Positions 5,806 to 45,882 of a stretch of DNA of 59,489 bases are shown one piece after another (within the stretch, counting starts at the first letter, position 1; every line of letters starts with the position of its first letter). This DNA is from Clostridia bacterium (GTDB lineage Bacteria > Bacillota > Clostridia > Oscillospirales > Acutalibacteraceae), in NCBI GenBank assembly GCA_017517665.1, contig JAFWYP010000062.1:1-59489 (forward strand), read 5' to 3'. A program made the position numbers and the translations under genes. The notes beneath the pieces are model-generated. The model was not told where the DNA came from and did no database searches. It was given only the letters and a program-made list of their open reading frames with translations.

Positions 5806-5816
5806 TTGATACAACG

Positions 5817-5846: not shown

Positions 5847-5847
5847 C

Positions 5848-5876
5848 TTGACAAAAACGCTGAACAATGTTATCCT
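5848..5876 (+). promoter_or_regulatory. Promoter of the padR operon
   Basis: Consensus TTGACA (5848-5853), 17 nt, TATCCT (5871-5876). It begins 2 nt after the preceding terminator's T-run and abuts the large inverted repeat at 5877-5912. Confidence 0.8.
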
Positions 5877-5912: not shown

Positions 5913-5925
5913 GGGAGGTTTTTAT

Positions 5926-7948: not shown

Positions 7949-8523
7949 GAAACGATGAAATGTATCTTCAGCTTTATCTGATACGTCACGGAGAAAGCAT
8001 GGGAAATATTGAAACTGACAGACCTTTTGATAAAACAAATCCACCGCTTACTATTCACGGAATAGGACAGGCAAGAGCTCTTGGCGAAAGGTTTGCAGCA
8101 CTTGAAAAATATACCCTGTATTCAAGTCCTCTTCAAAGGGCGGTTGATACCGCATCTTTTATAAGTAAAGAAATAATAATTGATTATGATTTGCTTGAAA
8201 ACGGAGTCAGGGCAACCGAAAACGGTTTTGAAGATTATTATGAATCCTCCGAAGAATGTTATGAAAGAGCGAAAAAGGTTGTTGAAAAAATAACAGCGAA
8301 ACACAGAAACCACGAGAATGTCATAGTTGTTGCCCACGGAATGTTTCTCAATCAGTTTATCAAAGCGGCTCTTAATATTCCGTGCGAAGCGATGAGATTA
8401 TCGGTTTATAATGCATCGGTAACAAAAATCAATTTCTGCGATGATGCACCAGTGAAGCTTGCGTTGCAGAACGATGTTTCGCACCTTCGTGAAACAGACG
8501 GAGAAAAACTTTTCTGGATGTAG
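7945..8523 (+). CDS. Histidine phosphatase superfamily protein
   Basis: 192 residues, start ATG 7945 with GGAGG seven nt upstream. The branch-1 phosphoglycerate-mutase-like signature LIRHGES (RHGES 14-18), the SSPLQRA segment (Arg65) and VVAHGMF (His131) give the complete catalytic set with His15 as phospho-acceptor. Substrate unknown; housekeeping phosphatases (alpha-ribazole phosphatase, broad phosphomonoesterases) share these motifs. Third gene of the PadR operon. A distant paralogue lies at 20876-21568. Confidence 0.88.
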   Translation: MRNDEMYLQLYLIRHGESMGNIETDRPFDKTNPPLTIHGIGQARALGERFAALEKYTLYSSPLQRAVDTASFISKEIIIDYDLLENGVRATENGFEDYYESSEECYERAKKVVEKITAKHRNHENVIVVAHGMFLNQFIKAALNIPCEAMRLSVYNASVTKINFCDDAPVKLALQNDVSHLRETDGEKLFWM

Positions 8524-8550
8524 GAAATTTTCAAAACAGCAAAATGATTC

Positions 8551-8579
8551 TTGCAATATCTTACACGGGAATGTATAAT
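8551..8579 (+). promoter_or_regulatory. Promoter of the FAD oxidoreductase
   Basis: TTGCAA (8551-8556), 17 nt, perfect TATAAT (8574-8579), 31 nt before the start codon. Confidence 0.78.
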
Positions 8580-8609
8580 TTAGATATATTCTTGAAAGGG
8601 GAAAGAGCG

Positions 8610-9971: not shown

Positions 9972-10005
9972 TATTTTAATGATAGAATATTGATTTAAGC
10001 AACAT

Positions 10006-10037
10006 ACTGACTTCGTTTTTTTGCGGAGTCAGTTTCG
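10006..10037 (+). terminator. Terminator of the FAD oxidoreductase
   Basis: ACTGACTTCG (10006-10015) pairs with CGGAGTCAGT (10024-10033, one G-U), followed by a short T-rich run. Confidence 0.75.
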
Positions 10038-10202
10038 TTTTGATTGAATTTTATCGTGGTTGTAAAAGTGTATTTATTCACTTGTGAGGATGCGAGCATC
10101 TCAACATAAGTTTTGAGCTTTTTTCAGCTTCTCTCAAGGTACTCCCTGTTCCTTAAGTTCTGATTTATCTTTTTATACTGTTTGATGTGTCTGTAACTTC
10201 AG
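10038..10202. other. Intergenic, no gene seen
   Basis: It contains a small hairpin (GATGC-GA-GCATC near 10088) and several T-runs but no ribosome binding site with a frame behind it. It could be a remnant of a lost gene or a short RNA; I cannot support either. Confidence 0.4.
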
Positions 10203-10257
10203 ACAAAAATTCCTCCTATGGTAGTTATCTTAATTCTACAATAGGAGGAGTTTTTTT
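10203..10257 (-). terminator. Bidirectional terminator, long stem
   Basis: A 14-bp stem (10211-10224 with 10236-10249, one mismatch) with an 11-nt loop is flanked on the plus side by a T7 run and on the minus side by ATTTTTG. Its position 50 nt past the minus-strand oxidoreductase gene makes it the end of that operon. Confidence 0.8.
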
Positions 10258-10308
10258 GTTATCCGTTTTTTACCGTATCAGTTCAAATGACAGAGGAGAT
10301 TTTTGCTT

Positions 10309-11589
10309 TTATAAAATTACTTTTTCGGGTATACCGTTATTCTCTCTTGATTTGTCTGCAAGGAAAACGACGAGATGTCCCGAGAGTGAGTCGGTGATTG
10401 ATGTGCATGAAACGGAAGGTTCTTCGCCTCGTGCGTAGGCAACAAAGTCTCTCACAAGGTCAAGGTCGCCGCCGCCGTGGGTATCGTCACCGATTTTCAG
10501 ATCGTAAACCGTGTCTTCATGCTCGCGTCCGGGACGGGGATCAATCTTTGAAAGGGTGAATCTTGCTTTTTCAAAATCTCCCTTAATAATGCCTTTTGTA
10601 CCTGTTATGTGAATCGTTCTTGTGCCGCTGCTTGTGCCGCCGACCATGTTGTGAGTGCCTGTTGCGCCGTTTTCAAACATAACGCTGACGGTCTGATGGT
10701 CAACAACGTTGTTGTCGCTCTTGTATGCACATACACCGTAGGGACTTGTTTTGAGAAGTTCGATTTTATCTTCTATTGTGGGAGTTTCAAGATTTTCAAG
10801 AGCATCCCAAACGTAGAAAGACCATCTGTCAGGGTGGTCGATATAAATTCTCTTTGCGGAATAAAGGCATTCATCAACAAGAGGACAGTCAACAAGACAT
10901 CTTGTGCCCGATTTTTCGGGTGCATTTTCTTTAACAAACTGTTTATTGCATCCGAAGCTTGAAACAAGCGCAGGCTTTGTTTCGCTCATGAGCCACATCA
11001 TGATGTCAATGTCGTGACAGCATTTCGCAAGAAGCATTGAGCTGTGGCATTTTTCGGAGTTGTTCCACTTGCCTCTTACGTGGCTTGTTGACATATGATG
11101 ATAGCTTACGAATTCACTCGTCTGAATGCTGATTATTTCACCGATTTCACCTGCTAAAATCAAATCCTTGATTTTTCTGTAAAACGGTGCATAACGGAGA
11201 ACGAAGCAGACCATAACCTTTCTGCCGTATTTTTCAGCGGCTTCAACAAGCTCTCTCGCTTCTTCTTCATTAACCGAAAAGGGTTTTTCGAGAAGCACAT
11301 CATATCCTGCCTTGAGAAGGGGAATGGTTGTTTTAACATGAATATGGTCCATTGTGCCGTTGATGACCGCATCGGCAAATTTGGGTGCAGCTGCAAGCTC
11401 TTCCGCTGTATTAAAACATCTTTCGGGCGGAATGTTATAAAGCTTTGCAATTGAATTCCTGCGGTTTTCATCGGGGTCTGCAACTCCGACGATTTCCATT
11501 TTATCGCTTTCGATATTTGCGAGATTGGCATAAGTCAGACTTCTGTGACCTCCGCCGACTATTACTGTTTTTAAGGGTTTGAGTTCCAT
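10309..11589 (-). CDS. Gfo/Idh/MocA-family oxidoreductase with Cys cluster
   Basis: 426 residues, about 80 longer than the basic family. The N-terminal Rossmann fold (KTVIVGGGHRSLTYA), LLEKPFSVNEEEA (EKP 101-103) and CCHDIDIMMWL (190-200), which carries the family His-Asp pair, are clear. A middle insertion carries CLVDCPLVDEC (Cys231, Cys235, Cys241), with further Cys nearby, which may bind a metal or cluster. Expected to oxidise or reduce a sugar or polyol with NAD(P). Only 3 nt separate it from the upstream GPH transporter gene, so transporter and enzyme probably handle one imported substrate. Confidence 0.87.
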   Translation of the reverse strand: MELKPLKTVIVGGGHRSLTYANLANIESDKMEIVGVADPDENRRNSIAKLYNIPPERCFNTAEELAAAPKFADAVINGTMDHIHVKTTIPLLKAGYDVLLEKPFSVNEEEARELVEAAEKYGRKVMVCFVLRYAPFYRKIKDLILAGEIGEIISIQTSEFVSYHHMSTSHVRGKWNNSEKCHSSMLLAKCCHDIDIMMWLMSETKPALVSSFGCNKQFVKENAPEKSGTRCLVDCPLVDECLYSAKRIYIDHPDRWSFYVWDALENLETPTIEDKIELLKTSPYGVCAYKSDNNVVDHQTVSVMFENGATGTHNMVGGTSSGTRTIHITGTKGIIKGDFEKARFTLSKIDPRPGREHEDTVYDLKIGDDTHGGGDLDLVRDFVAYARGEEPSVSCTSITDSLSGHLVVFLADKSRENNGIPEKVIL

Positions 11590-23779: not shown

Positions 23780-23820
23780 TCACCGCACCAATCCAAAAGA
23801 TTGATGCGGTGAAATTTTTT
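23780..23820. terminator. Shared bidirectional terminator
   Basis: A 14-bp stem (23780-23793 with 23799-23812, one mismatch) with loop CAAAA, followed by T6 on the plus strand and by A/T-rich sequence on the minus strand. It separates the convergent 22327 and 25918 operons. Confidence 0.88.
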
Positions 23821-25918
23821 ATTCCGCTTCTTCAATAAGACCGTAATATCTTCCGAACCAGTAGGGAAGAAGATATGTGCTGGGACATGATGCAACCGAG
23901 GCATTTCCTTCGTCAACCCTGAACATATTGCTGTCATTATAATGAATGATTCTTTCGTCGGCCTCAAGAGCCTCTTTAAGTTGAGGAGCTTCACCCCATT
24001 TTTCTTGCTCGGTATCAAAAACAAGACCTTTTCTTTTTGAATTTATAATCGGAGTACGAATAAAATCAAGCGGGAAATTGCGAAGCTCTTTTATAGCATT
24101 GTCGAGGTCGCAGGGTTCATCGGAGAAAGCACTGCATACAAGATTGAAGAAAATCGTATGTTCGGGTCTTTCGTATTCCCAATGATGACGAAGTCCCATG
24201 AGAAGATATTTTCTGATTGCAGGGTCTTTTTCTATTCGGAGAATTGTTGCTGTTGTAAGGAAGCCGAGATTATCGTCAATGTGGCAGACATGACCGTCAT
24301 CTTTCTTATGCTGTGCGGCGTTGATAAGATAATGCTCGTCAATTGCCAGATGCATGAATTCATCTCTGTATTTTTGCTCGCCTGAAACATGATATGCAAC
24401 ATCAAGGAATGAGAGCATTTCAAGTGAGTTTATGCACTTTTCCCAGAGCCACATACAGTTGCCGTTAAGCTGGTCGAGTGCCCAGTTTGCCCATGTTGTA
24501 GGCAGACCGTCAATATCGCAGAGCTTATAGTTGTTTTCAAGCATATGGTCAACTATATCGCAGATAATTTCTCTGATATACTCTTTTTCTTCATCATTTG
24601 CACATAAATCATAATAAAGTGAGAAACCGAAGAAATGACCAACCATCTCGTCGCTTGAAGTTTCGCCGAGCCACTCGCTTATTCCGTCGGGTGAGGGATG
24701 CCATTCAGAGCCTTCTCTGTCAACAAAAACTCCGAAGTCTTCATCGCCTTCAAATCGAACGGCTCTTGCAGTGAATCCTTTTTTACCCGATACTTTTGCA
24801 AGATAACCCATTGCATACATTGAGCGTCTTGCTGCTTCAAGAACTTTCTCGTCTTTCGTAACTGCATAGCAATATGCAAGCGCACCGATATATGTCTGTG
24901 TCCACAGACCGTCATTATCCGATATTCCGGAAACTCCTGTGCTTATGTCGTGATTTACGATGCTGTGAAGACCTGTTACATATCCCTTTGTACGGATATA
25001 ATGATCCTCTGTAAGTTTAAAGCAATAGTCAGCTTTTTCTTCAAGAGTCATATCCTTTTCAGTGATTTTTGTTACACCCGAATCGGTTGCGGTCCAGATT
25101 GCATCGCCTGTTGCAATTGCATCGTTGAGCTTCGGTTCGCAAGACCATCTGGTTGCGGGCAGGTATTTGCATTTACCGTCTTTGAGAATAATAAGACCTG
25201 CTTCGGAAGAAAGGATAACTCTGCCGTCATTCGCAAAACGGATTCTGAAGATTTCTTCTTCAGGAAGTGCATTAAGTTCGTTGTGACCGTACCAGCCGAT
25301 TTTACCGTCGTAAATATAAACGCCTTTATCTGTGCCGAGCCATGTGAATCCGAGATTTGAATCGTGCTCGATGCAGTTGATTTTTATTTCGGGCATTGAT
25401 GAGTGTTCGTGGCAGATGTTCATCCAGCGTTTTCTTTTACCGTTAACGCAGATGAAAAATTCGGATGTCGCAGCGTTGATTTTTTCGCCTGTAATTGCAA
25501 TGTCGGTAAGCTCGGATTCCGTTCTGAAATATTTCACGAATTTTCCGTCGTTGAATTTATAGAGCCATTCGGGGGTGATAAGATAAATCACATCCGTGCC
25601 GCTGAAACAGATAACTTCTTCATCAAGTGTCTGTAATTCGTTGATGTTTCCGTTTTCCGAAACATAGATTATGTTTTGGGCGGCGAAATAAACTTTGCCA
25701 TTTGCCGAAAAAACAGCCTTTACTGCAGGGCAGGGGAAAGCACCGAGAGTGCCGTCCTTTTTGGTATAGTTAAGACCTTTTTCCGTTCCTATATAAACCG
25801 TACCGTCGCATTCTGCAAGGCAGTAAGCCTTGTTGTCAAGAAGTCCGTTAGCAGAGGTGTAATAGTCGCAGATTCTCTGAGGATATTTTGCGGTTTTGAA
25901 AATTCCGTGTTTTTTCAT
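23819..25918 (-). CDS. Beta-propeller plus alpha/alpha-barrel protein, putative glycan-related
   Basis: 699 residues, no signal peptide. Residues about 20-300 are short WLGTDKGVYIYD- and GTEKGLNY-type repeats, like the propeller of two-component-regulator sensors. Residues about 315-690 are helix-rich with DNDGLWTQTYIGALAYCYAV, DEMVGHFFGFSLYYDL, LPTTWANWALDQLNGN and a final LPYWFGRYYGL. These segments recur in the 592-residue protein at 41614, so the two are paralogous. The helical part resembles (alpha/alpha)6 glycoside hydrolase/lyase folds; catalytic residues cannot be named. Last gene of the birA operon. Confidence 0.65.
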   Translation of the reverse strand: MKKHGIFKTAKYPQRICDYYTSANGLLDNKAYCLAECDGTVYIGTEKGLNYTKKDGTLGAFPCPAVKAVFSANGKVYFAAQNIIYVSENGNINELQTLDEEVICFSGTDVIYLITPEWLYKFNDGKFVKYFRTESELTDIAITGEKINAATSEFFICVNGKRKRWMNICHEHSSMPEIKINCIEHDSNLGFTWLGTDKGVYIYDGKIGWYGHNELNALPEEEIFRIRFANDGRVILSSEAGLIILKDGKCKYLPATRWSCEPKLNDAIATGDAIWTATDSGVTKITEKDMTLEEKADYCFKLTEDHYIRTKGYVTGLHSIVNHDISTGVSGISDNDGLWTQTYIGALAYCYAVTKDEKVLEAARRSMYAMGYLAKVSGKKGFTARAVRFEGDEDFGVFVDREGSEWHPSPDGISEWLGETSSDEMVGHFFGFSLYYDLCANDEEKEYIREIICDIVDHMLENNYKLCDIDGLPTTWANWALDQLNGNCMWLWEKCINSLEMLSFLDVAYHVSGEQKYRDEFMHLAIDEHYLINAAQHKKDDGHVCHIDDNLGFLTTATILRIEKDPAIRKYLLMGLRHHWEYERPEHTIFFNLVCSAFSDEPCDLDNAIKELRNFPLDFIRTPIINSKRKGLVFDTEQEKWGEAPQLKEALEADERIIHYNDSNMFRVDEGNASVASCPSTYLLPYWFGRYYGLIEEAE

Positions 25919-26668: not shown

Positions 26669-27349
26669 TCATATTCTGATTGAGATTTCACCCGAGGATA
26701 AAATGTCGGTGCTTCCGTCGGGAAGTTTTATAATCAGGTTGCAGTTTTCATTGATATCAGCCGCAAAACCTTTGAATTCAATATTGTTTTTGAAATAAGT
26801 TACTTCTTTTCCGATAACAAACAGAAGCTGACGGTATTTGTTGATAATCTCGGAATCATCTTGATAATAGTCAAGAATTTTATCTGATATTTTATCGGCG
26901 ATGTACTCTTTGTCACAGTTTATATTAATGCTGCCCGCCGCTTTTAATTCAACAGGAAAATGCTGTGTTGTAATGTTTAATCCTATTCCGAGAGTTATAT
27001 ATGAATTGCCGTTGTTTATAATTCTTTCGGCGAGTATACCGCAAACTTTCTTACCGTTTATGAAAATATCATTTACCCATTTGATTTTCGGGTCAGCGCC
27101 GATAGATGATAAAACCTCGCATACCGCAACGGCCGCCAAAGGAGTGAGCAATTCCGAATTGCCTCTTTCTTCAAAAACAAGAGTCATGTATAATCCCGTG
27201 TCTTTCGGAGAATAAAAGCTGTTACCTCTTCTGCCTCTGCCTTCGGTTTGCTCGTTTGCAATAATAAGAACGGGAAGAGAAAGGTTATCTATATTTTCTT
27301 TTGCATATGTGTTTGTTGAAGGTAAGGTGTCAAAAAAGAGTTTACGGAT
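26669..27349 (-). CDS. birA: Biotin-protein ligase (no DNA-binding domain), apparent non-AUG start
   Basis: About 226 residues. LPSTNTYAKE (9-18), NEQTEGRGRRGNSFYSPKDT (about 32-51, biotinyl-AMP loop), KWVNDI (90-95) and GKKVCGIL (99-106) are the ligase signature. The conserved N-terminus lies upstream of the first ATG (27187), yet there is no ATG, GTG or TTG in that segment. The promoter at 27380-27408 puts the 5' end of the mRNA near 27373, and an AAGGA lies at about 27358-27362. The start is therefore CTG (27358), ATT (27355) or ATC (27349); ATC has the best spacing (9 nt). The N-terminal HTH of repressor-type BirA is absent, so it should only biotinylate carboxylase carriers. Confidence 0.85.
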   Translation of the reverse strand: MRKLFFDTLPSTNTYAKENIDNLSLPVLIIANEQTEGRGRRGNSFYSPKDTGLYMTLVFEERGNSELLTPLAAVAVCEVLSSIGADPKIKWVNDIFINGKKVCGILAERIINNGNSYITLGIGLNITTQHFPVELKAAGSININCDKEYIADKISDKILDYYQDDSEIINKYRQLLFVIGKEVTYFKNNIEFKGFAADINENCNLIIKLPDGSTDILSSGEISIRI

Positions 27350-27379
27350 AAAAATCAGTCCTTGTTTATTGTTAAAATA

Positions 27380-27424: not shown

Positions 27425-27453
27425 TTGACAGCTTAATTAATAAATTGTAAAAT
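27425..27453 (+). promoter_or_regulatory. Promoter of the glycyl radical operon
   Basis: TTGACA (27425-27430), 17 nt, TAAAAT (27448-27453). It is divergent from the birA promoter, with 16 nt between the two -35 boxes. Confidence 0.82.
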
Positions 27454-27484: not shown

Positions 27485-28189
27485 ATGAAAATATTGCAAA
27501 AAGGTTTCAACTATTCTCAGGACGGTCCCGGAAACAGACTTGTTTATCATTTGCAGGGATGCAATTTCAGATGTAAATGGTGCTCGAATGCAGACAGCAT
27601 TCCTCTTGATAATTCAAATGCAAAAGAATATTCCGTTGATGAGTTATTCGATGAAATAATGCGAAGCAGAATGATGTTTTTTGACGGAGGCGGTGTTACA
27701 TTCACGGGTGGAGAAGTTTGTGTTCAGTCCGATGAGCTTATTCAACTTCTCAAAAAACTCAAATCTGCCGAAATAAACACTTGCATTGAATCGAATGCAT
27801 CTTTTCCGTCAATAAAAAATGTTGCGGAATATATTGATTATCTTATTGTTGATTTTAAACATTTTGATGATGAAATGCACAGAAAATGGGTCGGTGTATC
27901 TAACAAAACAGTCAAAGAGAACATTGAGTATTTCTTTTCGACAGGCAGACAGATTCATATACGCATTCCCGTTATTCATGGTGTAAACGATAATCCGCAA
28001 GGCTTTGCAGATTATTTTAAATCGTTTGATACATCAAATGCTGTTTTTGAATTCCTTGCATACCATGAATTCGGTAAGGATAAGTGGCAGGGAGAATATG
28101 AAATTTCCGACGGTTTTTTACCAAGCGGAACAATAAAGAAATTTACTGAAATTTTTGAAAATTACGGCATAAAAACCGTTGCTACATAA
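27485..28189 (+). CDS. Radical-SAM glycyl radical enzyme activase
   Basis: 234 residues, ATG with GGGGGAG upstream. The radical-SAM cluster CNFRCKWCSN (Cys26, Cys30, Cys33), GGGVTFTGGE and late DFKHFD/RIPVIHGVND segments define a PflA-type activase. The extra ferredoxin-like Cys insert seen in many glycyl radical activases is missing, so it is PflA-sized. It should abstract H from the Gly of the enzyme encoded 12 nt downstream, using SAM and a reduced [4Fe-4S] cluster. Confidence 0.93.
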   Translation: MKILQKGFNYSQDGPGNRLVYHLQGCNFRCKWCSNADSIPLDNSNAKEYSVDELFDEIMRSRMMFFDGGGVTFTGGEVCVQSDELIQLLKKLKSAEINTCIESNASFPSIKNVAEYIDYLIVDFKHFDDEMHRKWVGVSNKTVKENIEYFFSTGRQIHIRIPVIHGVNDNPQGFADYFKSFDTSNAVFEFLAYHEFGKDKWQGEYEISDGFLPSGTIKKFTEIFENYGIKTVAT

Positions 28190-28201
28190 GGAGAAATGAT
28201 T

Positions 28202-30526
28202 ATGATTAACATTCTTAACAGCAAAAAAATAACGGAAATGGCAAAAAAGCTTTTTGCCGAAAAAAGAGCAGGTATGCGCCTTGACGGCTGGTTTATCGCC
28301 AAAGAAGCCGAGCTTCGTCTTGCCAAAGAATTCGAGGGTGAAAATGAAGAAGTGAAAAAGGCTCTCATTCTTCGTGAAATCGTTAAAACTCTTCCGATTT
28401 ATCTGAGCGATTATCAGATTTTTGCAGGTACTCAGGATGATGCTTTTGCAAGAAGCTACGCACTTATAAATCCTGCTTTTAAAGTTGAAGAGTTCAGCGG
28501 TTACTGTGACCCTGCCGCAGTATTTTCGGATATCGAACCCAACGGTGAATTTACTGCCGAAAGAATTGAAAAAGCAAGAAATGAATTTGCCAAAACAGAA
28601 TATGCCGTAAAGCTCGGTGAAGTTTACGGTAAGGCTGAATGTTATACTAAGGAAGTTATCTTTTTCTTTGAACAGGTAACGGGACATCTTATCCCCGATA
28701 TGCGTTTTGCAATCAAATACGGTGTTAAAGAAATGCTTGCAAAGATTGACGGTAAGGAAGGTAACGGCTACAAAGCTTTTGCAATTGCGCTTGAAAGTGC
28801 AATCATTCTTGCAAACCGTTATGCCGACCTTGCCGCAGAGCAGGCTGAAACAGCTTCACCCGAAAGAAAAGCTCAGCTTGAAATAATGGAGAAAACACTC
28901 CGCAAAGTTCCCGAAAACGGTGCCGAAAATCTTTTTGAGGCTATTCAGGCATTTATTATAATGTGGCAGATTATGTGCCTTGAACAGACTCCCAATCCGT
29001 TTGCATTCTCGGTCGGTAATGCTGACAGAATTTTTGAACCGTACAGAAACGGTGCGGACCGTGAAACAGTCGCAGCTCTTCTCAAGCATTTCCTCGTTTT
29101 CTTCAATGTTGCTGACAGAAGCTGGGCTATTTCGCAGAATATTATCGTCAGCGGCCGAGACCTTTGCGGAAACGATTTAACCAACGAAACTACATATGCA
29201 CTCATGGATGCATATTACGAAATGAATCTTCCTCAGCCTATTCTTTCCGTTAAGCTTCATAAGAATACTCCTGCAAAGCTTTATGAAGAAATGGGCAGAT
29301 TCCTTTTCACTCCCGGTGCACTTACTCCTTCATTCTTCAATGACGATTCACTCTATGAAGTTCTTGCTTCAAAGGGCGTTGACGATAATGACCTTGCGGA
29401 TATTTCGATCGCAGGCTGTCAGGAACCTCTTATCATGGGCAAGGATAACGGCAACACAACAAACAGCTGGCTCAATCTTCCCAAGATTCTCGAAATGACA
29501 CTTACAGGCGGCGTTTCAACAATTACAGGCGAGAAGCTTGTTGACGTTGAAGCCTGCAAGCTTGAAAATATCCGTGAAGAATTCTTTAAGAATGTTGAAA
29601 AGTTTGTTGCAGCCATGGGTGAATGTGCAAACGGCGCATCAGCGGCTCTTTCAACCCAAAGAGTACCTTTCCTTTCTTGTCTCATGGGCGGACTTGAAAA
29701 CGGTATAGATGCAAGAGATATCAATAAGCAGGGTACAAAATATAACGGCAGCGGATGCCTTATCCACGGTGTTTCTGTTATCGCAGACAGCTTCTCCGCT
29801 ATTGATAAACTCCTTGCCGAAAGACCGCAGGATGCCGATAAGCTTGTTGATGCACTTAAAGCAAATTTTGAGGGCTATGAAGAACTCAGAGATTTTCTTC
29901 TTTCTGCCGATAAATTCGGTAATAACATTGAAAAAGTTGATGCGGAAGCGGGCGAAATCGCTTCAAAGGTTGCGGATATTGTTTCCTCAACAAAGAATTA
30001 TCTCGGCAATTCGTTCCGTCCCGATTTCTCATCACCCTCAACTCATCTTCTCTACGGTTACTGGGTAGGTGCAACTCCTGACGGCAGAAAGTCAAGAGAT
30101 ATGCTCGGCTACGGTGTTGACCCTCTTTACGGTAGTGCCGAAAACGGTCTCGGATTCCGTATGCTTTCAAATATGAAGATGCCTTTTGAAAAGATGAACG
30201 GCGGTTATGCTTCGCATCTCGGTATCGACCCCAAATATTTTAAATCCGATTCATACGAAGAAAAGGGCGTTGAATTCAGAGACAAGGTTATAAATCCCTT
30301 GTTCTTCAATCCTCTTAATGAAGGTGTTTCACCTTTCTATCTCTATGTTAACGTTACAACCGCAGAAATTCTCCGTAAGGTTCTTGCAGACCCCAAAAAG
30401 TATGCACCCAGCGGCGTTTATATTATGAGAATTCACGGTACATTCGTTAATTTCCTTGACCTTTCACCCGCTATTCAGCAGGATATCATAACAAGACTTG
30501 ACCCCAATTCAACATCCATCGCATAA
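28202..30526 (+). CDS. Glycyl radical enzyme of unknown substrate
   Basis: 774 residues from the ATG at 28202 (AAGGAG 8 nt upstream; the ATG at 28196 is too close). The PFL-fold landmarks are present: the thiyl-radical site IAGCQEP (Cys406, Glu408, the C-x-E of dehydratase and lyase types rather than the Cys-Cys of pyruvate formate-lyase) and the glycyl loop near the C-terminus, YIMRIHGTFVNFLDLSPAIQ, then QDIITR. Gly746 aligns with the radical Gly of RVSGYAVRF...QQDVITR in PFL, but the usual G-Y-[AS] is G-T-F here. Not PFL, CutC, HypD, IslA or NrdD by motif. A carbohydrate or polyol substrate is suggested by the kinase and isomerase genes behind it (inference). Confidence 0.9.
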   Translation: MINILNSKKITEMAKKLFAEKRAGMRLDGWFIAKEAELRLAKEFEGENEEVKKALILREIVKTLPIYLSDYQIFAGTQDDAFARSYALINPAFKVEEFSGYCDPAAVFSDIEPNGEFTAERIEKARNEFAKTEYAVKLGEVYGKAECYTKEVIFFFEQVTGHLIPDMRFAIKYGVKEMLAKIDGKEGNGYKAFAIALESAIILANRYADLAAEQAETASPERKAQLEIMEKTLRKVPENGAENLFEAIQAFIIMWQIMCLEQTPNPFAFSVGNADRIFEPYRNGADRETVAALLKHFLVFFNVADRSWAISQNIIVSGRDLCGNDLTNETTYALMDAYYEMNLPQPILSVKLHKNTPAKLYEEMGRFLFTPGALTPSFFNDDSLYEVLASKGVDDNDLADISIAGCQEPLIMGKDNGNTTNSWLNLPKILEMTLTGGVSTITGEKLVDVEACKLENIREEFFKNVEKFVAAMGECANGASAALSTQRVPFLSCLMGGLENGIDARDINKQGTKYNGSGCLIHGVSVIADSFSAIDKLLAERPQDADKLVDALKANFEGYEELRDFLLSADKFGNNIEKVDAEAGEIASKVADIVSSTKNYLGNSFRPDFSSPSTHLLYGYWVGATPDGRKSRDMLGYGVDPLYGSAENGLGFRMLSNMKMPFEKMNGGYASHLGIDPKYFKSDSYEEKGVEFRDKVINPLFFNPLNEGVSPFYLYVNVTTAEILRKVLADPKKYAPSGVYIMRIHGTFVNFLDLSPAIQQDIITRLDPNSTSIA

Positions 30527-30535
30527 GGAGCTTAT

Positions 30536-31831
30536 ATGAAAATTATCGGAATAGATATCGGTACAACAAGCATCTGCGGTATAGTCTTTGAAACAGTATC
30601 ACAGAATATTACTGCATCAAAAACTCTCCCGAACAATTCGCTTATCAAAACCGAAAACAGCTATGAAAAAATCCAGAATCCCGAAATAATTATGAACACG
30701 GTTTATGAAATTCTTGACGAATTTTATTCGGATGATGTCGGAGCAATCGGTTTTTCGGGTCAGATGCACGGAATTGTTTATACCGATGAAAACTCGGATG
30801 CCGTAAGCCCTCTCTATATCTGGCAGGATGAACGTGCTGCAAAGGAATATGAAAACGGTAAATCCTATGCGGAACATCTCGGATGTTTTGCGGGTTACGG
30901 ACTTGCAACGGATTTCTATAATGTAAAAAACGGACTCATTCCTCAAAAAGCAAAGTATCTTTGCACGATTGCCGATTATGCGGTTATGAAGCTTTGCGGC
31001 AACAAAAAGCCTCTTGTTCATATCACGAACGCCGCATCTCTCGGATGCTTTGATTTGGTTAATAATAAGTTTACAATTGAAAACTGCCGACTTCCCGAAG
31101 TTACCGCTGAATTCAAAGCGGCAGGTGAATACAAAGGAATTCCGGTCTGCGTTGCACTCGGAGATAATCAGGCAAGCTTTATCGGTTCTGTTTCCGATGC
31201 TGATAATGCTCTTATCAATATCGGAACCGGTTCCCAGATTTCGTGGCTATCTGATGAACTTGTAAATGCGGAAGGTGTTGAAAACAGACCCTTTGACGGC
31301 AAGCGTTATCTTGCGGCAGGCTGTGCTCTTTGCGGCGGCAGAGCATTTGCTATGGTTGAAAAGCTTTTCAGAGAAATTGCAAGTCTCGTTTCCGACAAAG
31401 AAGTAACCTCGATGTATTCTGCAATTGATAAGATTCTTACCGAAAAAACAGAAACCTCTCTTTCGGCTGATTGCCGATTCTGCGGAACAAGAAACTATCC
31501 CTCAATAAGAGGCGGAATATATAATATTTCCGAGGAAAACTTCACAGCTTCGGATATTGCTCTTTCCGTTCTTTACGGTATGTCCGATGAGCTTTATCAA
31601 ATGTATAAAAACGGCGGCAAAAAGGCAGAAAAGCTTGTTTGTTCAGGAAACGGAATAAGAAAAAATGCGGCATTGAGAAGAGTTGTTTCCGAAATGTTCG
31701 GATGCGAAATTAAAATTCCTCTTTTTGAAGAAGAAGCATCGTTTGGTGCGGCTCTTGCGGCATCGGTTGCCTGCGGAATGAGTGCTGATATTTCACAAGC
31801 CTGCAAAATGATAAAATATAAGGAGGTTTAA
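30536..31831 (+). CDS. FGGY-family carbohydrate kinase
   Basis: 431 residues, AGGAG ribosome binding site, 9 nt after the glycyl radical enzyme gene. ATP-binding MKIIGIDIGTTSICGIVF (1-18), the substrate-side SGQMHGIVYTDE and YIWQDERA, and the second-lobe INIGTGSQISWLS and SGNGIRKNAAL are FGGY marks. GQMHG plus WQD is most like the sedoheptulokinase branch, but the substrate cannot be fixed. Within this operon it probably phosphorylates the sugar or polyol that feeds or leaves the radical enzyme. Confidence 0.9.
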   Translation: MKIIGIDIGTTSICGIVFETVSQNITASKTLPNNSLIKTENSYEKIQNPEIIMNTVYEILDEFYSDDVGAIGFSGQMHGIVYTDENSDAVSPLYIWQDERAAKEYENGKSYAEHLGCFAGYGLATDFYNVKNGLIPQKAKYLCTIADYAVMKLCGNKKPLVHITNAASLGCFDLVNNKFTIENCRLPEVTAEFKAAGEYKGIPVCVALGDNQASFIGSVSDADNALINIGTGSQISWLSDELVNAEGVENRPFDGKRYLAAGCALCGGRAFAMVEKLFREIASLVSDKEVTSMYSAIDKILTEKTETSLSADCRFCGTRNYPSIRGGIYNISEENFTASDIALSVLYGMSDELYQMYKNGGKKAEKLVCSGNGIRKNAALRRVVSEMFGCEIKIPLFEEEASFGAALAASVACGMSADISQACKMIKYKEV

Positions 31832-31833
31832 CC

Positions 31834-32853
31834 ATGTTTTATAACGAACCGATTTTCTTTGAAAAAAACAGGGTTTTCAGAGTGTATACGGGCGGAAAGC
31901 TTTTTTCCGATTTCTTCGGTGATGATTCAACCGACGGCTTTTATCCCGAAGAGTGGGTTGCATCAAGTGTTAAGGCTCTTAACGAAGGAAGCACCGACGA
32001 ATATGAAGGTGTTTCAAAAATAAAAGGTATTGATTTGTATCTCAACGATGCTGTTGAAAAGTATAAAGCTGAAATTCTTGGTGACCGAGAAGATATCGGA
32101 ATTCTCACAAAAATACTTGACAGCGCAATAAGATTACCCGTTCAGGCTCATCCCGACAAAGTTTTTTCAGAAAAATATTTTTCATCAAAATACGGCAAGG
32201 AAGAAAGCTGGATTATTCTTGCCACAAGACCCGGAGCAAAGATTTTCTACGGATTCAAAGACGGCGTAACCATGGAAGATTTCAATGCAGCGATTGATGA
32301 AAGCGAAAACAAATCGGATGCAATGGAAAAGCTTCTTTGCTCAATTGATGTCAAAGCGGGGGATGTAATTTATATTCCTGCAAAAATGGTTCATGCAATC
32401 GGAAGCGGATGCCTTCTCCTTGAAGTTCAGGAACCCACGGATTTCACAATTCAGCCCGAACGCTGGTGCGGTGAATATAAGCTTTCCGATAAGGAAATGT
32501 ATCTTGGTCTTGACAGGGAAAAGGCACTTGAATGCTTTGATATGAATAAAAAATATCCCGCCCCCCTCACACCCAAAACCATATCCGATGAAAACGGCGT
32601 AAAATATGAGGCTGTTATCGACGAAACAATAACAAAGAGTTTTTCGGTCAGAACCGCAACCGTCAAAGGCGGGAATTTTGAGCTCGGCAGGGGAGCAGCA
32701 GTCTATGTTGTAACCGAAGGTGAAGGTGTCGTTATCGGCGAAAACTATAACCGTGAAATCAAAAAAGGTGATTATTTTCTCATGCCAGAAAATGCAAAGG
32801 ATAAATTTCGTGTAACCGGTGATTATATTAAAATAACAGAATGTTTTGCATAA
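31834..32853 (+). CDS. manA: Class I mannose-6-phosphate isomerase-like protein
   Basis: 339 residues, AAGGAGG ribosome binding site. Cupin Zn-ligand motif LPVQAHPDK (QAHPDK 104-109), AKMVHAIGSGCLLLEVQ (second His and Glu) and the C-terminal jelly roll ending in KKGDYFLMP place it in the type I phosphomannose isomerases. It interconverts an aldose-6-phosphate and the ketose-6-phosphate. Last gene of the glycyl radical operon, 2 nt after the kinase gene. The name is family-level; specificity for another sugar phosphate is possible. Confidence 0.85.
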   Translation: MFYNEPIFFEKNRVFRVYTGGKLFSDFFGDDSTDGFYPEEWVASSVKALNEGSTDEYEGVSKIKGIDLYLNDAVEKYKAEILGDREDIGILTKILDSAIRLPVQAHPDKVFSEKYFSSKYGKEESWIILATRPGAKIFYGFKDGVTMEDFNAAIDESENKSDAMEKLLCSIDVKAGDVIYIPAKMVHAIGSGCLLLEVQEPTDFTIQPERWCGEYKLSDKEMYLGLDREKALECFDMNKKYPAPLTPKTISDENGVKYEAVIDETITKSFSVRTATVKGGNFELGRGAAVYVVTEGEGVVIGENYNREIKKGDYFLMPENAKDKFRVTGDYIKITECFA

Positions 32854-32859
32854 AAGTAA

Positions 32860-32888
32860 TTGACAGTTTGATTAAATTGATTTAATAT
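32860..32888 (+). promoter_or_regulatory. Promoter of the rubrerythrin-fusion gene
   Basis: TTGACA (32860-32865), 17 nt, TAATAT (32883-32888), 38 nt before the ATG. Confidence 0.7.
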
Positions 32889-32926
32889 TGAAATATCTTC
32901 CAATAATATATATCAGGAGGGATATA

Positions 32927-34102
32927 ATGAATACAAATGCAATGTTCAAAATCGGTTACGGTCTTTATGTTCTTACCGCAAAGGAAAACGGATTTGATAA
33001 CGGCTGTATAATCAACACCGTTTCACAGGTAACGGTAAATCCCAACAGAATTACTGTTGCTGTCAACAAGGCAAATAAAACCCACGATATGATTCTTTCA
33101 AGCGGTGAATTCAATGTGAGCATTCTATCAACTTCCGCCACATTTGATATTTTTAAAGCATTCGGATTCAGAAGCGGTAAGGATGTTGATAAATTCAGCG
33201 ATTTCAAAGCTGTTGAAAGAAGCAATAACGGTCTTTATTACATTACCGAGGCAACAAATGCTTTTATTTCTGCAAAGGTTGTTAATGCAACGGATCTCGG
33301 TACTCATACACTTTTTCTTGCCGATGTTACCGACTGCGAAGTGCTTTCCGATGCAACGAGCGTAACCTATGATTATTATCATAAAAATATTAAGCCCAAG
33401 CCCGAAGTAAAGAAAACCGCAAAGGTTTATTACCGCTGTAAAATCTGCGGTTATATCTATGAGGGTGATGAACTTCCTGCAGATTTTATCTGCCCGCTTT
33501 GCAAACATCCCGCTTCCGATTTTGAAAGAGTTGAAGCGGTTGAAGTAAATAATAAAGGAGAGAATAACATGAATCTTAAAGGTACAAAAACAGAAAAGAA
33601 TCTTATGGCTGCTTTTTCAGGTGAATCAGAAGCAAGAAACAAATACACTTATTTTGCTTCCGTAGCTAAGAAGGAAGGTTTTGAACAGATTGCGGCAATC
33701 TTTACTGAAACCGCAAACAACGAAAAGGAACATGCTAAAATGTGGTTCAAGGCTCTCGGTGCACTTGGTGATACAGCACAGAATCTTCTCCACGCAGCAG
33801 AAGGCGAAAACTACGAATGGACAGATATGTATGCAACATTCGCAAAGGAAGCGGACGAAGAGGGCTTCACGGAGCTTGCAGAAAAATTCCGCATGGTAGC
33901 AGCTATCGAAAAGACCCATGAAGAAAGATACCGTGCACTTCTCAGCAATGTTGAAATGCAGAAGGTATTTGAAAAGGCAGAGGAAACAATGTGGGAGTGC
34001 CGTAACTGCGGTCACCTTGTAATGGGCAAGAAAGCTCCCGAGGTCTGCCCCGTTTGTGCACATCCTCAGGCTTACTTTGAAGTTAGAAAAGAAAACTATT
34101 AA
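32927..34102 (+). CDS. Flavin reductase-rubredoxin-rubrerythrin fusion protein
   Basis: 391 residues from the ATG at 32927 (AGGAGG upstream). Domains: FMN-binding split barrel of the flavoredoxin/flavin reductase type (about 1-155), rubredoxin ([13 protein letters not shown]...FICPLCKHP; Cys171, 174, 189, 192), then a four-helix rubrerythrin ([30 protein letters not shown] di-iron ligands) with a C-terminal rubredoxin-like site (WECRNCGH...CPVC). The join (codons 205-216, [12 protein letters not shown]) translates a perfect internal ribosome binding site: AAAGGAG at 33554-33560 and ATG at 33569. Two ancestral genes have thus become one frame, and free rubrerythrin (177 residues) may also be made. 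Role: peroxide and oxygen detoxification in an anaerobe. Confidence 0.92.
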
Positions 34103-41613: not shown

Positions 41614-43392
41614 ATGTCATTACCTTACAAGCTTCAAAACCATGTGTGCAGATTTTGCAGTTTCTATAAACTCGGGGATGAGAAGATTCCTGCAAATCTT
41701 ATGACAGCTGTCAGTGAAAAACCCGACCTTACCGATTTCCCGTACCCTCTTCCTTCAAAAAAGAAGGATTATACCTGCTATGCCAAAACAGGTGATATTG
41801 AATGGTACGGTGCATCAAACGGTCTTACTAGATACGATAAAAATGCTCAGCGAGAAGAAGATATCGTTATGTATTTCAGTGCTGACAGAGATTTGCTTGA
41901 TAATAATGTCAAGGCGATTTTGCCCGATGGAGATAATGTCTGGGTGCTTACCGAAACAGGTGCCGCTTATATTGAAATGCGCTCGATAAGCATGGAAGAA
42001 AAAGCGGACATTCTTCTTGATGAATCCGTTAAATATGTCAGCCGAAGATGGATGTTTGCACAGAAGCGACTTACAGAAGGCAGAAATCTCGATTCAATTC
42101 TACCTTACGGTTCTTCTGATAATGACGGCAGTTTCACCTCGGGTTTTTCAATTGGTGAAATTCTGCGCTATGCCACCTATAAAAAGGAAAAGGGGATTGA
42201 TCATCCCGACACAGTAAAGGCAAAGTATATTGCCACAAAAGCTGTTGAAGCCTGCCTTCTTCTTCTGCATATTTCCTGCAGAGGCGACGGATTTGTTGCA
42301 AGAAGCTATCATACTCCCGATGAACCCGTGCCCGATGACGGACTGTTTTTCAGAATCAACAACGGTAAGGCTTATGTTGTGGAAACAACAAGCTCAAAAG
42401 AAAAAAATATTGTCGGTTATGAAATTGATGCAAGTGCACCTGTTCCCGAAAGACTTGCAAAGCTTTATACCGATCTCGGCTTCACAATTGACGGAATTGT
42501 TTATAAGGCAGATACAAGCAGCGATGAAATTACTCATCATTTCCTTAATATGTATTTTGCCCATGAATATCTTGCCTGCGATGACCCCGAGCTTGACGAG
42601 CTTATTATTATGTCCGCCAAAGGACTTATGAACCATATTATAGATAACGGTTATGAGCTTCACGATTTCACCGGTGAACCCACAACCTGGGCAAAGTGGA
42701 GCGAACCATATTTCCATACCGAATTTGGCTGGGTTGACGGTGCACTCAATACTGCCGAGCTTCTTATGTATCATCTTGTTACAATGAAGATAACGGGTGA
42801 AAAAGGTAAGTGGCTTGAAAGCTATAATTATCTTGTTAATGAGTGCGGATATGCCGATGTTTGTCAGACTCACTTTGACAGACTGTATCAGGCATCAATT
42901 TCGATGAATTTTGATTATCCCGAGGATATTATGTACGGCGATCATATGCTTGCAACCCTTTCCTTCTGGGGTCTCTGCCTTCTTGAAATCGATGAAAAGC
43001 TCCTTGAGAAGTACAGAAAAGGCTTCAAAGCATGGAGAAGTTCAATGGCAAGAGAACATAATCCCGGTTATGACCTTCCTTATTTTATTTCCTGCCCGGA
43101 TGAAAAGCCTGATCTCGATAAGCTTGCGGGCTGGTTCTACAGAACAAATGCAAGCCGTCTTGCGGCAGGTGTAAGCCTTATAGGCAGACATGATGTTCCT
43201 GTCAGAACGCTCAGACTCGGTAAAAAGGAAATTTCCGTTCAGCTTCCTCCCGATGAAACATTTATTGCAAAATATGACCGTGACCCCGTTGAATATAAAA
43301 ACGAAGACTCAGGCGGTATAATGTGCGTTGAAAACTGCTATGTTTATACTTTTGCTTACTGGGTTGGCAGATTCTACGGATTCTTTGAATAA
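41614..43392 (+). CDS. Alpha/alpha-barrel protein, paralogue of the 25918 gene product
   Basis: 592 residues, GGGGTGA upstream. A shorter propeller-like N-terminal part (WYGASNGLTRYD, VKAILPDGDNVWVLTETGAA; about 55-125) precedes a helical domain with SDNDGSFTSGFSIGEILRYA (about 170-189), ITHHFLNMYFAHEYLACDDP, FTGEPTTWAKWSEPYFHTEF and a final TFAYWVGRFYGFFE. These correspond in order to the segments of the 699-residue protein. Likely an (alpha/alpha)6 glycan-active protein; no signal peptide, so a cytosolic role on imported oligosaccharides is more likely than secretion. It heads an operon with GH38 and GH78-like genes. Confidence 0.65.
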   Translation: MSLPYKLQNHVCRFCSFYKLGDEKIPANLMTAVSEKPDLTDFPYPLPSKKKDYTCYAKTGDIEWYGASNGLTRYDKNAQREEDIVMYFSADRDLLDNNVKAILPDGDNVWVLTETGAAYIEMRSISMEEKADILLDESVKYVSRRWMFAQKRLTEGRNLDSILPYGSSDNDGSFTSGFSIGEILRYATYKKEKGIDHPDTVKAKYIATKAVEACLLLLHISCRGDGFVARSYHTPDEPVPDDGLFFRINNGKAYVVETTSSKEKNIVGYEIDASAPVPERLAKLYTDLGFTIDGIVYKADTSSDEITHHFLNMYFAHEYLACDDPELDELIIMSAKGLMNHIIDNGYELHDFTGEPTTWAKWSEPYFHTEFGWVDGALNTAELLMYHLVTMKITGEKGKWLESYNYLVNECGYADVCQTHFDRLYQASISMNFDYPEDIMYGDHMLATLSFWGLCLLEIDEKLLEKYRKGFKAWRSSMAREHNPGYDLPYFISCPDEKPDLDKLAGWFYRTNASRLAAGVSLIGRHDVPVRTLRLGKKEISVQLPPDETFIAKYDRDPVEYKNEDSGGIMCVENCYVYTFAYWVGRFYGFFE

Positions 43393-43404: not shown

Positions 43405-45882
43405 ATGAATAATAAATTACATATCGTAAGCAATGCCCACCTTGATCCTATCTGGCTCTGGAGATGGCAGGAGGGTTGCGGCGAGGTGCTTCAGACTTTC
43501 AGAAGTGCAGTTGACCGCCTTAAAGAATATAAAGGACTTGTTTTTACCTGTTCTTCAGCTTCTTATTATAAATGGGTTGAAGAAATTGATCCCGAACTAT
43601 TTGAAGAAATCAGAAAGCTTGTTAAAAAGGGCAGATGGGTGCCCGTCAACGGTTGGTGGGTTCAACCCGACTGTAATATGCCTTCTGCTGAAAGCTTTGC
43701 ACGTCAGGCACTTTACAGTCAGCTTTATTACTATGAAAAATTCGGAGAAATCTGTAAAACGGGTTATAATGTAGACTCGTTCGGACATAACGCAATGATG
43801 CCACAGCTTCTTAACAAGGGAGGTATGCGTTGCTATGTTATGATGCGTCCGGGTATGCATGAAAACCCCGAAATTCCTGAAAATCTTTTTTGGTGGGACA
43901 GCCCCGACGGCTCAAGAGTTCTGACTTACAGAATTCCGGAATGTTATTGTGTAAACGGTAAGAACGGTATTGACCATGAACTTCAAAATCTCCGTGAAAG
44001 AGTTGAGAATACGGGTCACGGTATGATGTTCTTCTTCGGTGTCGGCAATCACGGCGGCGGACCCACAAAGGGCGACCTTGATTATCTTCTCGAGCTTAAA
44101 GAAAACGGATATGAGGAGCTTGAATATTCTTCCCCCGATGAATATTTTGCTGAAATGTGTGCTGATAAGGAACTTAATCTTCCTGTTTGGAACGATGAAC
44201 TTCAGCATCACGCAAGCGGCTGCTATTCTGCAACCTCAATGGTAAAGCAGCTCAACAGAAAAGCCGAATACTGGCTTGCAAATGCCGAAAAATGGAATAC
44301 CGTTTGCGGCAAGATAACCAATCTTCCCAAGGCAACCGAAGAATTCGGCAAGGCATGGCAGGAAGTTTGTTTCAATCAGTTCCATGATATTTTCTGCGGC
44401 TGTTCGATTATGGAAGCATATGACGATGTGCGTGACTCTATGGGCTATGCAATGAAGATTGCCGCAAATGAAGAAAATAAAGCGATGCTTAAAATTGCAG
44501 GTATGGTTAATACATGGCTTGACGGAGTAACGGATGCTGTTGCAACAAACGCACGCCATCATTGCAGAAATCTCAAATTCCCCAGACCCGTTATTGTTTT
44601 CAATCCCAATTCATTTGATGTTGAAACAAATGTGAGAACATATCATCCTTCAAGAAAGGTTGAAAATGCAGACGGTAAGGACGTTATATTCCAGAATGTC
44701 CGTTCATCCCGTTCAAATGATTCTCATAAAGATACCGTATTCCGTGCAAAGGTTCCTGCAATGGGATATGCAACCTACTGGCTGTGGCACGAAGATTCGG
44801 AATATTGCGAAGACCTCAGTGATAATAAGAGCGATGTTTCCGCAGAGGAACTTACCATTGAAAATAAATATCTTAAAGTTGTTTTTGATGATAAAACAGG
44901 CGGTATCAAGAACCTTGTTTCCAAAGAAGATTCAACAGAATATGTCGGCGGCGAATTCTGCATTCCTACCGTAATTGACAATTCCGAACCCGATACATGG
45001 GCGCATAATATCTTCAAGTTTGATAAAGAAATTGCAAAGATGGAACTTAAGTCAATGGAAGTTGTTGAGTGCGGTGCCGCAAGAGCTGTTATGCGTGTGA
45101 AGCATATCTATAACGGTTCGTATCTCAATCAGGATTTTATTCTTGACTCTGAAAGCAAGCATCTTCGTGTCAAGTGCAGAATTCTCTGGCAGGAGCCTCT
45201 CACAATTCTCAAAATGCCTGTAACCGTTGACGGTGAAAATCCTGTTTCAACCTATGAAATTCCTGCAGGATACATCAAACGTCCCTGCAACGGCGAAGAA
45301 GAACCTGCACTTACATGGGGCGATATCACCGCCGGAAATGGAAACCGCAAGGGTGTAGCACTCATCAGTGACGCTAAATACAGCTATGATTGCCCGAATA
45401 ATACTCTGAAGCTCACAATGCTTCGCAACTGCATTTTTGCGGATCATTATTCAGACAGACCTGCAGCCGATTTCAGCTATACAGACGAAGGACTTCACCG
45501 CTTTGAATATGCGATTTATCCTCATAAGGGCGAAGCTGAAAACAGCGGTGTTCAGAGAATTTCCGCTTTGATTAACTCTAAACCTGTTGCAATTCCCGTA
45601 GGATATCATAAGGGTGACCTTCCTCAGAACAAGAGCTTTGTTAAGGCCAACAAAGATAATGTCCGTCTTGATGCATTCAAATTCTGCGAAGACGGCTCAG
45701 GTGATGTTGTTATGCGTTTCTGCGAAACAGACGGTAAGTACGTTAAAGCGGCAATTGTTTGTGATATTGCAGAAGCTGGGTTCTATTCAGATTTCAATCC
45801 GTTTGAAATCAAAACATTCAGAATCAATGCTGAAGGTTATGTAACCGAAACAAACTTCCTTGAAGGCATTGTAAACGATTAA
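43405..45882 (+). CDS. GH38 alpha-mannosidase
   Basis: 825 residues. HIVSNAHLDPIWLWRWQEGC (His12, Asp14 Zn ligands), VQPDCNMPSAESFARQ, and GYNVDSFGHNAMMPQLL with the likely nucleophile Asp124 give the GH38 catalytic domain. The middle and C-terminal beta-sandwich domains (about 400-825) complete the normal length. Retaining, Zn-dependent removal of alpha-linked mannose; no signal peptide. 12 nt after the barrel-protein gene. Confidence 0.93.
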   Translation: MNNKLHIVSNAHLDPIWLWRWQEGCGEVLQTFRSAVDRLKEYKGLVFTCSSASYYKWVEEIDPELFEEIRKLVKKGRWVPVNGWWVQPDCNMPSAESFARQALYSQLYYYEKFGEICKTGYNVDSFGHNAMMPQLLNKGGMRCYVMMRPGMHENPEIPENLFWWDSPDGSRVLTYRIPECYCVNGKNGIDHELQNLRERVENTGHGMMFFFGVGNHGGGPTKGDLDYLLELKENGYEELEYSSPDEYFAEMCADKELNLPVWNDELQHHASGCYSATSMVKQLNRKAEYWLANAEKWNTVCGKITNLPKATEEFGKAWQEVCFNQFHDIFCGCSIMEAYDDVRDSMGYAMKIAANEENKAMLKIAGMVNTWLDGVTDAVATNARHHCRNLKFPRPVIVFNPNSFDVETNVRTYHPSRKVENADGKDVIFQNVRSSRSNDSHKDTVFRAKVPAMGYATYWLWHEDSEYCEDLSDNKSDVSAEELTIENKYLKVVFDDKTGGIKNLVSKEDSTEYVGGEFCIPTVIDNSEPDTWAHNIFKFDKEIAKMELKSMEVVECGAARAVMRVKHIYNGSYLNQDFILDSESKHLRVKCRILWQEPLTILKMPVTVDGENPVSTYEIPAGYIKRPCNGEEEPALTWGDITAGNGNRKGVALISDAKYSYDCPNNTLKLTMLRNCIFADHYSDRPAADFSYTDEGLHRFEYAIYPHKGEAENSGVQRISALINSKPVAIPVGYHKGDLPQNKSFVKANKDNVRLDAFKFCEDGSGDVVMRFCETDGKYVKAAIVCDIAEAGFYSDFNPFEIKTFRINAEGYVTETNFLEGIVND

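Follow-up and report, generated by a model that had tools for sequence, protein, structure and literature searches.

A divergent glycyl radical enzyme encoded together with an FGGY kinase and a phosphomannose-isomerase-like protein in genomes of Clostridia

Genome analysis of the window, that is, the whole stretch of 59,489 nucleotides of contig JAFWYP010000062.1 (assembly GCA_017517665.1, Clostridia bacterium, family Acutalibacteraceae), showed the presence of an operon with the gene of a glycyl radical enzyme (GRE), preceded by the gene of its activase and followed by genes for an FGGY carbohydrate kinase and for a protein resembling type I mannose-6-phosphate isomerase (PMI), designated here PMI2. 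Judging by sequence comparison, the GRE represents a separate branch, belonging to none of the functional groups compared, and is likely an eliminase of a carbohydrate or polyol. The chances that the operon constitutes a dedicated anaerobic catabolic module, in which a radical eliminase, a kinase and an isomerase would process a sugar or polyol, are estimated as about even.

All four genes are located head to tail on the forward strand, namely, the gene of the PflA-type radical SAM GRE-activating enzyme (27485..28189, 234 amino acids (aa), Radical_SAM 73.7 bits), the GRE gene (28196..30526), the gene of the kinase (30536..31831, 431 aa) and the gene of PMI2 (31834..32853, 339 aa). The open reading frames and the short gaps of 2–12 nt, reported in the initial annotation, were confirmed: 6 nt separate the activase from the GRE (12 nt from the second ATG), 9 nt the GRE from the kinase, and 2 nt the kinase from PMI2. 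The GRE comprises 776 aa from the first ATG; the earlier figure of 774 residues is that of the second ATG, at 28202.

The PFL-like barrel domain PF02901 is present in the GRE (343.6 bits, cut-off 24.3), and no row for PF01228 was obtained at E 0.001 for the window GRE, the only family member scanned. For all GRE models listed in NCBIfam, the window GRE is far under the cut-off, particularly for TIGR01774 (233.7 of 678.2 bits) and PRK09983 (168.4 of 1109 bits). Assignment to HypD (170.3 of 1100 bits), CutC (157.4 of 1050 bits), HpsG (178.9 of 1000 bits), HpfG (160.9 of 1000 bits) and indoleacetate decarboxylase (121.8 of 1100 bits) was rejected by the NCBIfam equivalogs, and pyruvate formate-lyase was rejected by the TIGR01255 score (60.2 of 994.2 bits) and by the Cys loop GCQE, which contains no adjacent Cys pair. 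The best PDB profile score was obtained with glycerol dehydratase (GD) 1r8w (283 bits), followed by 9rco (244 bits), 2f3o (243 bits), propanediol dehydratase (PDD, 217 bits), 8id0 (211 bits), HypD (205 bits), PflD (204 bits) and YbiW (154 bits); isethionate lyase, HplG and decarboxylases were compared by PDB score, outside the tree.

In the tree of 34 GREs, constructed without rows of isethionate lyase, HplG, decarboxylases and benzylsuccinate synthase, eight rows of the family form a single group with support of 100/100, and membership in the HypD, CutC, YbiW, PflD and GD/PDD clades is excluded. The family stem measures 2.0 changes per column, versus 0.64–0.79 for the stems of HypD, CutC and PflD and 0.29 for GD/PDD; the nearest neighbour in the tree is uncertain, with a long-branch warning for one row joining the family. 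The position outside known functional groups, assumed earlier, agrees with these results, as none of the groups compared by NCBIfam cut-offs, PDB scores and the tree fits.

Residues G748, C408, E410 and H164 are invariant in 20 aligned members of the family, G748 and C408 corresponding in the alignment to G763 and C433 of GD. The CXE eliminase motif is represented by C408-Q409-E410 (Cys loop, 29417..29425, forward strand) with Q replacing V/I, and His at position 164 is common to the family, GD, PDD, PflD, YbiW and HypD, the CutC row being different. The Gly loop R745-I-H-G748-T749 (30428..30442, forward strand) is noncanonical; it reads APSG(V/I)YI(M/V)RIHGTFVNFLDLSP and is preceded by a three-residue insertion. 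All 20 aligned members contain RIHGT, while RIHGTF was found in 51 of 51 loci of the genome_contigs scan that do not end short of the C-terminus, as L052 and L068 do. Overall, 116 sources contain RIHGTF, including the window, and many of them are the same genome twice. The loop of other GREs examined is RVxG[YFW], with RIGGY in locus L134. The published fingerprint of GREs is given as RVXG[FWY] (PMC11528403), and the Gly loop of the 20 aligned members does not match it. Aminoacyl radical enzymes, according to the same source, also depart from the fingerprint, but replace the Gly, whereas in the present family the Gly is kept and its neighbours are changed. With the fingerprint taken as diagnostic, and the Gly, the Cys and the activase as the requirements of the chemistry, the protein is classified here as a divergent GRE. 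A second uncharacterised GRE group (L128, L129, L132 and L137; 721–771 aa), with the motifs GCLEKG or GCIEKG and RVGG[YF] and an adjoining activase-like gene, occurs in the same genus.

Residues H281, S282 and D447 of GD, which we take to be substrate contacts, are replaced in the alignment by F or Y269, A270 and T422; a loop found in GD and other GREs is absent from the family, and the pocket, judging by the alignment, is altered. Positions S334, D339, F340 and T645 of HypD, described as substrate contacts (PMC7077986), align with D307, I312, S313 and P614 of the family, where the stretch near S334 is shorter and the alignment is unsure. Such changes at substrate positions suggest a substrate different from those of other eliminases.

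The activase scores 164.8 bits with TIGR02494 at a cut-off of 174.35, and a Cys-containing insert, present in its relatives from L055, L059 and L060, is missing from it in the alignment. In the kinase, both FGGY_N (65.6 bits, cut-off 28.8) and FGGY_C (41.7 bits, cut-off 27) exceed the Pfam cut-offs, and the motifs QMHG and GDNQA (GDNQAS in the window) are present, presumably as in ketose kinases of the xylulokinase kind; the Asp of GDNQAS is taken to be catalytic. Both domains and both motifs are shared with XylB and other FGGY kinases, but the protein is shorter (431 aa versus 481 in the XylB model, with 99.3 bits at a cut-off of 380.25) and is assigned to its own FGGY subfamily. In Blautia schinkii (L057, 11654–13198), the FGGY kinase contains an insert, about 50 residues long and rich in Ser, Asn and Gly. 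In locus L148 of genome G070 (3913–10868), two kinases of the operon subfamily flank a LacI regulator near genes of an ABC sugar transporter, and no GRE adjoins them.

PMI2 shares motifs of xHP, GKxE and HAxG types with type I PMI (1qwr, TIGR00218), but its score is under the ManA equivalog cut-off (82.1 of 116.2 bits). Residues Q104, H106, E124 and H187, possibly corresponding to the Zn ligands of type I PMI, are invariant in nine rows; H, E and H are common to 1qwr and ordinary PMI, while Q is also present in ordinary PMI and is K in 1qwr. The Arg of the motif TYR(V/I)YDY, present in 1qwr and in the ordinary PMI of the window's own genome (at G000:C7), is absent from PMI2, with Q, E or S instead in seven aligned rows. 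Identity of PMI2 with the ordinary mannose-6-phosphate isomerase was rejected, as all 20 GRE-containing genomes of the genus with PMI2 (20/20) show a second, weaker PMI match. Accordingly, PMI2 is regarded as a paralogue coexisting with ordinary PMI. FGGY pathways usually proceed from a free-sugar isomerase to a ketose kinase. PMI2 may likewise act on a free sugar ahead of the kinase, and the absence of the TYR(V/I)YDY Arg fits such a role. The initial annotation had the isomerase feeding glycolysis, which is unproven for a protein that differs from ordinary PMI, lacks the motif Arg and may precede the kinase.

The genome_contigs scan revealed 53 GRE loci, 59–93% identical, and the records naming a group all belong to Clostridia, including Blautia schinkii DSM 10518; by record titles, many carriers are Clostridia from ruminant guts. 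Of the 50 loci with room for it, 47 have the activase gene directly upstream of the GRE gene. Downstream, 50 loci have enough room (all but L052, L064 and L068), and in 47 of these the GRE gene is followed by the kinase gene, either immediately or with a regulator or PMI2 in between. PMI2 follows in 32 of 47 loci, those without room being L042, L049, L052, L064, L068 and L074. The GRE was found in 14 of the 391 genomes of the class sample (13 besides the window's own), belonging to eight families, own included, while the only match among the 398 genomes of the phylum sample was in the window's own genome. Among loci of the class sample with room (the 13 relatives except L179, cut at the GRE; G084 is split over two contigs), the kinase is present in the unit in 12/12 and PMI2 in 7/12. 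Because the gene arrangement recurs in many other genomes, it is beyond chance.

Within the genus, 24 of 37 genomes (own included) contain the GRE. PMI2 (at least 239 bits) was found in 20/24 genomes with the GRE versus 0/13 without it (Fisher p 6.7e-7), genomes G073–G076, outside the GRE search, being left out of this count; G075 has PMI2, and its stretch L114 also carries the GRE. The four GRE-containing genomes without PMI2 (G012, G027, G028 and G029) are 70–84% complete, and some genomes of the genus without the GRE are also incomplete, the lowest at 63%. The kinase subfamily is present in 8/8 GRE-containing genomes, selected from the 24 for this test, versus 1/13 without the GRE (Fisher p 4.4e-5). 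PMI2 and the GRE are on different contigs in G003, G009, G013, G019, G030 and G032, and in the order relative G057. The earlier expectation that kinase and isomerase genes stay beside the GRE gene holds in other families; in the genus some co-occur on another contig, and in many relatives outside it the isomerase is missing.

Genomes of relatives contain additional partner genes of sugar metabolism. Genes of glycoside hydrolase family GH38 were found in the unit of nine loci, representing two subtypes 23–26% identical, namely, L038, L040, L043, L045, L070 and L071 (subtype one) and L072, L170 and L173 (subtype two); the assignment is by Pfam for L043, L170 and L173 and by similarity for the other loci. 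In L170 (6334–9729), the GH38 frame continues into a partial aldo/keto reductase domain, representing a fusion, a deletion or an assembly chimera. In L106, which was scanned, and in L108, L109 and L110 (82–100% identical to L106), the kinase gene is followed by one for GH51, and genes of DUF2961 and GDSL proteins are located between GRE and kinase in L176. After the FGGY kinase, L182 encodes a PF07385 protein of the D-lyxose isomerase family (258.2 bits, under the NF051472 cut-off of 350), a relative of aldose epimerases and a PfkB kinase. An AGE protein similar to D-mannose isomerase is encoded in L060, which was scanned (392.5 bits, under the cut-off of 600), and in L075. Genes of ribose/allose-type ABC transporters were found near L055, L060–L063, L067 and L075 (L055 by scanning, the rest by clustering), and in L055, L057, L059, L060, L067 and L075 (L055 scanned) the gene of a GntR regulator separates the GRE gene from that of the kinase. 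Genes for fructose-6-phosphate aldolase (FSA), over the NCBIfam equivalog cut-offs, are present in L057 (251.9 of 214 bits) and L172 (297.3 of 245.95 bits). The gene of an aldo/keto reductase (AKR) was found in L061–L063 only and that of an alcohol dehydrogenase (ADH) in L061 and L062 only. ROK-family proteins are encoded near several units, and lineage-specific neighbours include genes for LCP, EamA, ArgJ, acyl-CoA ligase and others. The transporters, glycosidases, sugar isomerases and aldolase of some relatives strengthen the earlier proposal of a carbohydrate or polyol as the substrate of the GRE, which is still a prediction.

Taken together, these data are compatible with the following sequence of reactions. 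The activase would install the glycyl radical on G748, from which it would move to C408. By homology with GRE eliminases, whose mechanism has been described (PMC7077986, PMC8473560), the GRE would abstract the hydrogen adjacent to a hydroxyl, and the group next to it would leave; with E410 and H164, the enzyme would eliminate water or cleave a C–O bond of a free sugar, sugar alcohol or anhydro-sugar, giving a deoxy carbonyl sugar. PMI2, or in a few lineages a D-lyxose/mannose-type or AGE-type isomerase, would convert the product together with the FGGY kinase to a ketose phosphate, which FSA, present in two lineages, would there cleave to glyceraldehyde-3-phosphate and a ketone, either hydroxyacetone or one resembling it. 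No TAL_FSA match was found in the window's genome (88.7% complete), so in this organism the kinase product would have another fate, or FSA would be encoded in the missing part of the genome. Since the partner isomerases lean to mannose/lyxose-type sugars, a manno/lyxo-type substrate is suggested, with a probability slightly short of even; a 1-deoxyketose as the product is rather doubtful. We tentatively propose, with slightly less assurance than the manno/lyxo-type substrate, a new GRE sugar dehydratase, whose substrate would carry no phosphate and be a hexose, pentose, alditol or anhydro-sugar. With a radical loop reshaped by the H preceding and the T following the Gly, and with an isomerase and a kinase of its own, the enzyme would give mannose-type sugars a new anaerobic entry route.

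A number of observations weigh against such a module. Genes of the activase do not adjoin the GRE in L061–L063, and in L056, L058 and L069 the activase and GRE genes are followed by ArgJ with no kinase; among the genomes of the latter loci, G061 and G063 lack both the kinase subfamily and PMI2, while G070 lacks PMI2 and has two subfamily kinases elsewhere. PMI2 is present in only 4 of 16 GRE-containing genomes searched, all chosen for the GRE and mostly from outside the genus (its members G027 and G029 lack PMI2), and in G013, G030 and G032 it is a divergent form, 37% identical and not near the GRE, an MFS gene being located nearby in each of these genomes and RhaA in two of them. Genome G035, without the GRE, contains in a row genes for a NanA-type aldolase (360.1 of 281 bits), the kinase and GH51, so the kinase subfamily can serve another pathway. 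The glycosidase partners GH38, GH51 and DUF2961 disagree on one sugar. FSA was rejected as a general partner, being found only in L057 and L172 (L158 is the same locus) among the GRE loci examined; TAL_FSA gave no match in the window's genome, and 6 of 14 genomes searched were without one. Relatedness among genomes is ignored in all the counts and Fisher p values.

The list of GRE chemistry in the initial annotation omitted YbiW and PflD of E. coli, for which ring-opening of 1,5-anhydroglucitol-6-phosphate and 1,5-anhydromannitol-6-phosphate is reported (Ma et al. 2024, as cited in PMC12441222). Carbohydrate GREs are thus already known, and the present family is assigned to another branch with other partners. 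Among the matches listed for the open-licence PMC literature, no paper on a GRE paired with an FGGY kinase was found by title or abstract start. The family resembles YbiW and PflD in its eliminase-type residues, the probable carbohydrate origin of its substrate and the FSA gene nearby in two relatives, as in E. coli; it differs in the Gly loop, the pocket residues, the separate clade and the FGGY kinase and PMI2 partners, and no phosphotransferase system (PTS) gene was found among the scanned neighbours in the window.

A kinase-based variant of the YbiW/PflD route was considered unlikely, although it survives better than the other alternatives. Free 1,5-anhydroglucitol or 1,5-anhydromannitol would be imported by an ABC transporter and converted by the GRE to 1-deoxyfructose, which the FGGY kinase would phosphorylate to 1-deoxyfructose-6-phosphate for cleavage by FSA to hydroxyacetone and glyceraldehyde-3-phosphate. 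FSA acts on the product of YbiW and PflD. The location of FSA within the GRE units of L057 and L172 and of fsaA next to ybiW-ybiY in E. coli is consistent with this scheme, as is ABC import in place of a PTS, which suits a kinase acting after the GRE; AKR and ADH could reduce hydroxyacetone in the loci encoding them. The product reported for YbiW and PflD is indeed 1-deoxyfructose-6-phosphate (PMC12441222). However, the GRE falls outside both clades and has a higher profile score with GD than with either enzyme, FSA is absent from the window operon, and PMI2 and the mannose/lyxose-type isomerases would have no obvious role.

Two further alternatives appear improbable to the same degree. In the first, radical beta-elimination by the GRE on an O-glycosylated polyol, for example, mannosylglycerol or mannosylglycerate, would free mannose or a different hexose, and the kinase and PMI2, forming a mannose route, would yield fructose-6-phosphate. 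Partners of alpha-mannosidase-family, PMI and mannose-isomerase-like types and the altered pocket without the GD loop point to such a reaction, but GH38 would already free mannose, ordinary PMI is encoded elsewhere in the genome, and the kinase motif presumably points to a xylulokinase-like enzyme and not to a known mannokinase. In the second, a diol dehydratase of the glycerol/propanediol type would act on a small polyol, with a kinase of glycerol or tetritol type. The solved enzymes 1r8w and 5i2a are similar to the family in the CXE motif and His164, GD is the best-scoring solved relative, and glycerol kinases belong to FGGY; against this, the three GD residues H281, S282 and D447 are replaced, the long branch lies outside the GD/PDD clade, the QMHG motif is presumably that of xylulokinases, another FGGY protein of the genome (L093) is presumably glycerol-kinase-like by motif, and the isomerases are left without explanation. 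A housekeeping role of the GRE, for example, as an additional pyruvate formate-lyase, with sugar genes as accidental neighbours, is very improbable. The loci L056, L058 and L069, which lack kinase and isomerase, speak for it; against it, the Cys loop GCQE differs from the Cys-Cys of pyruvate formate-lyase, the genome encodes a further PF02901 protein at G000:C6, and the kinase adjoins the GRE across several families of Clostridia.

If the proposed sugar dehydratase exists, a standard search with the glycyl radical fingerprint would miss this branch of GREs, and GRE chemistry would be widened towards free sugars. The activase, GRE, kinase and isomerase, with the aldolase in two genomes, would then represent a testable set for the degradation of sugars or polyols by Clostridia, and the RIHGT loop would make it possible to ask how the stability of the radical Gly depends on the residues next to it.

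Upstream of the operon, a promoter-like site TTGACA-N17-TAAAAT with 11/12 consensus matches is located on the forward strand at 27425..27453, and a GGGGGAG stretch precedes the ATG of the activase gene. The single consensus promoter of the initial annotation is therefore present as a match but is only a plausible candidate, such sites being frequent in the region (20 found versus 13.7 expected in shuffles). The transcription unit probably comprises four genes, ending after PMI2, because a new TTGACA site (32860..32889, forward strand) precedes the next gene, encoding a flavin reductase-rubredoxin-rubrerythrin fusion (32888–34102). The rubrerythrin gene was excluded from the unit by this promoter-like site of its own and by adjoining PMI2 in only some relatives. 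The ATG at 32927, following AGGAGGG, is its likelier start, as the listed TTG start falls inside the promoter-like site.

On the other side of the operon, the biotin ligase gene (26669–27360) encodes 172 aa as listed versus a cluster median of 229; the frame continues without a stop ahead of the listed start, with no ATG where relatives begin, indicating an unusual start or a lost N-terminus. A GH38-type gene (43405..45882, forward strand), 10 kb downstream and outside the operon, is possibly associated with it; its product is 38–40% identical to the GH38 protein of about 820 aa encoded directly after PMI2 in six relatives. Two proteins of one similarity cluster, one with no Pfam match at E 0.001 (23819–25918) and the other with no NCBIfam match (41614–43392), are possibly undescribed glycoside-active proteins, the gene of the second adjoining the GH38-type gene.

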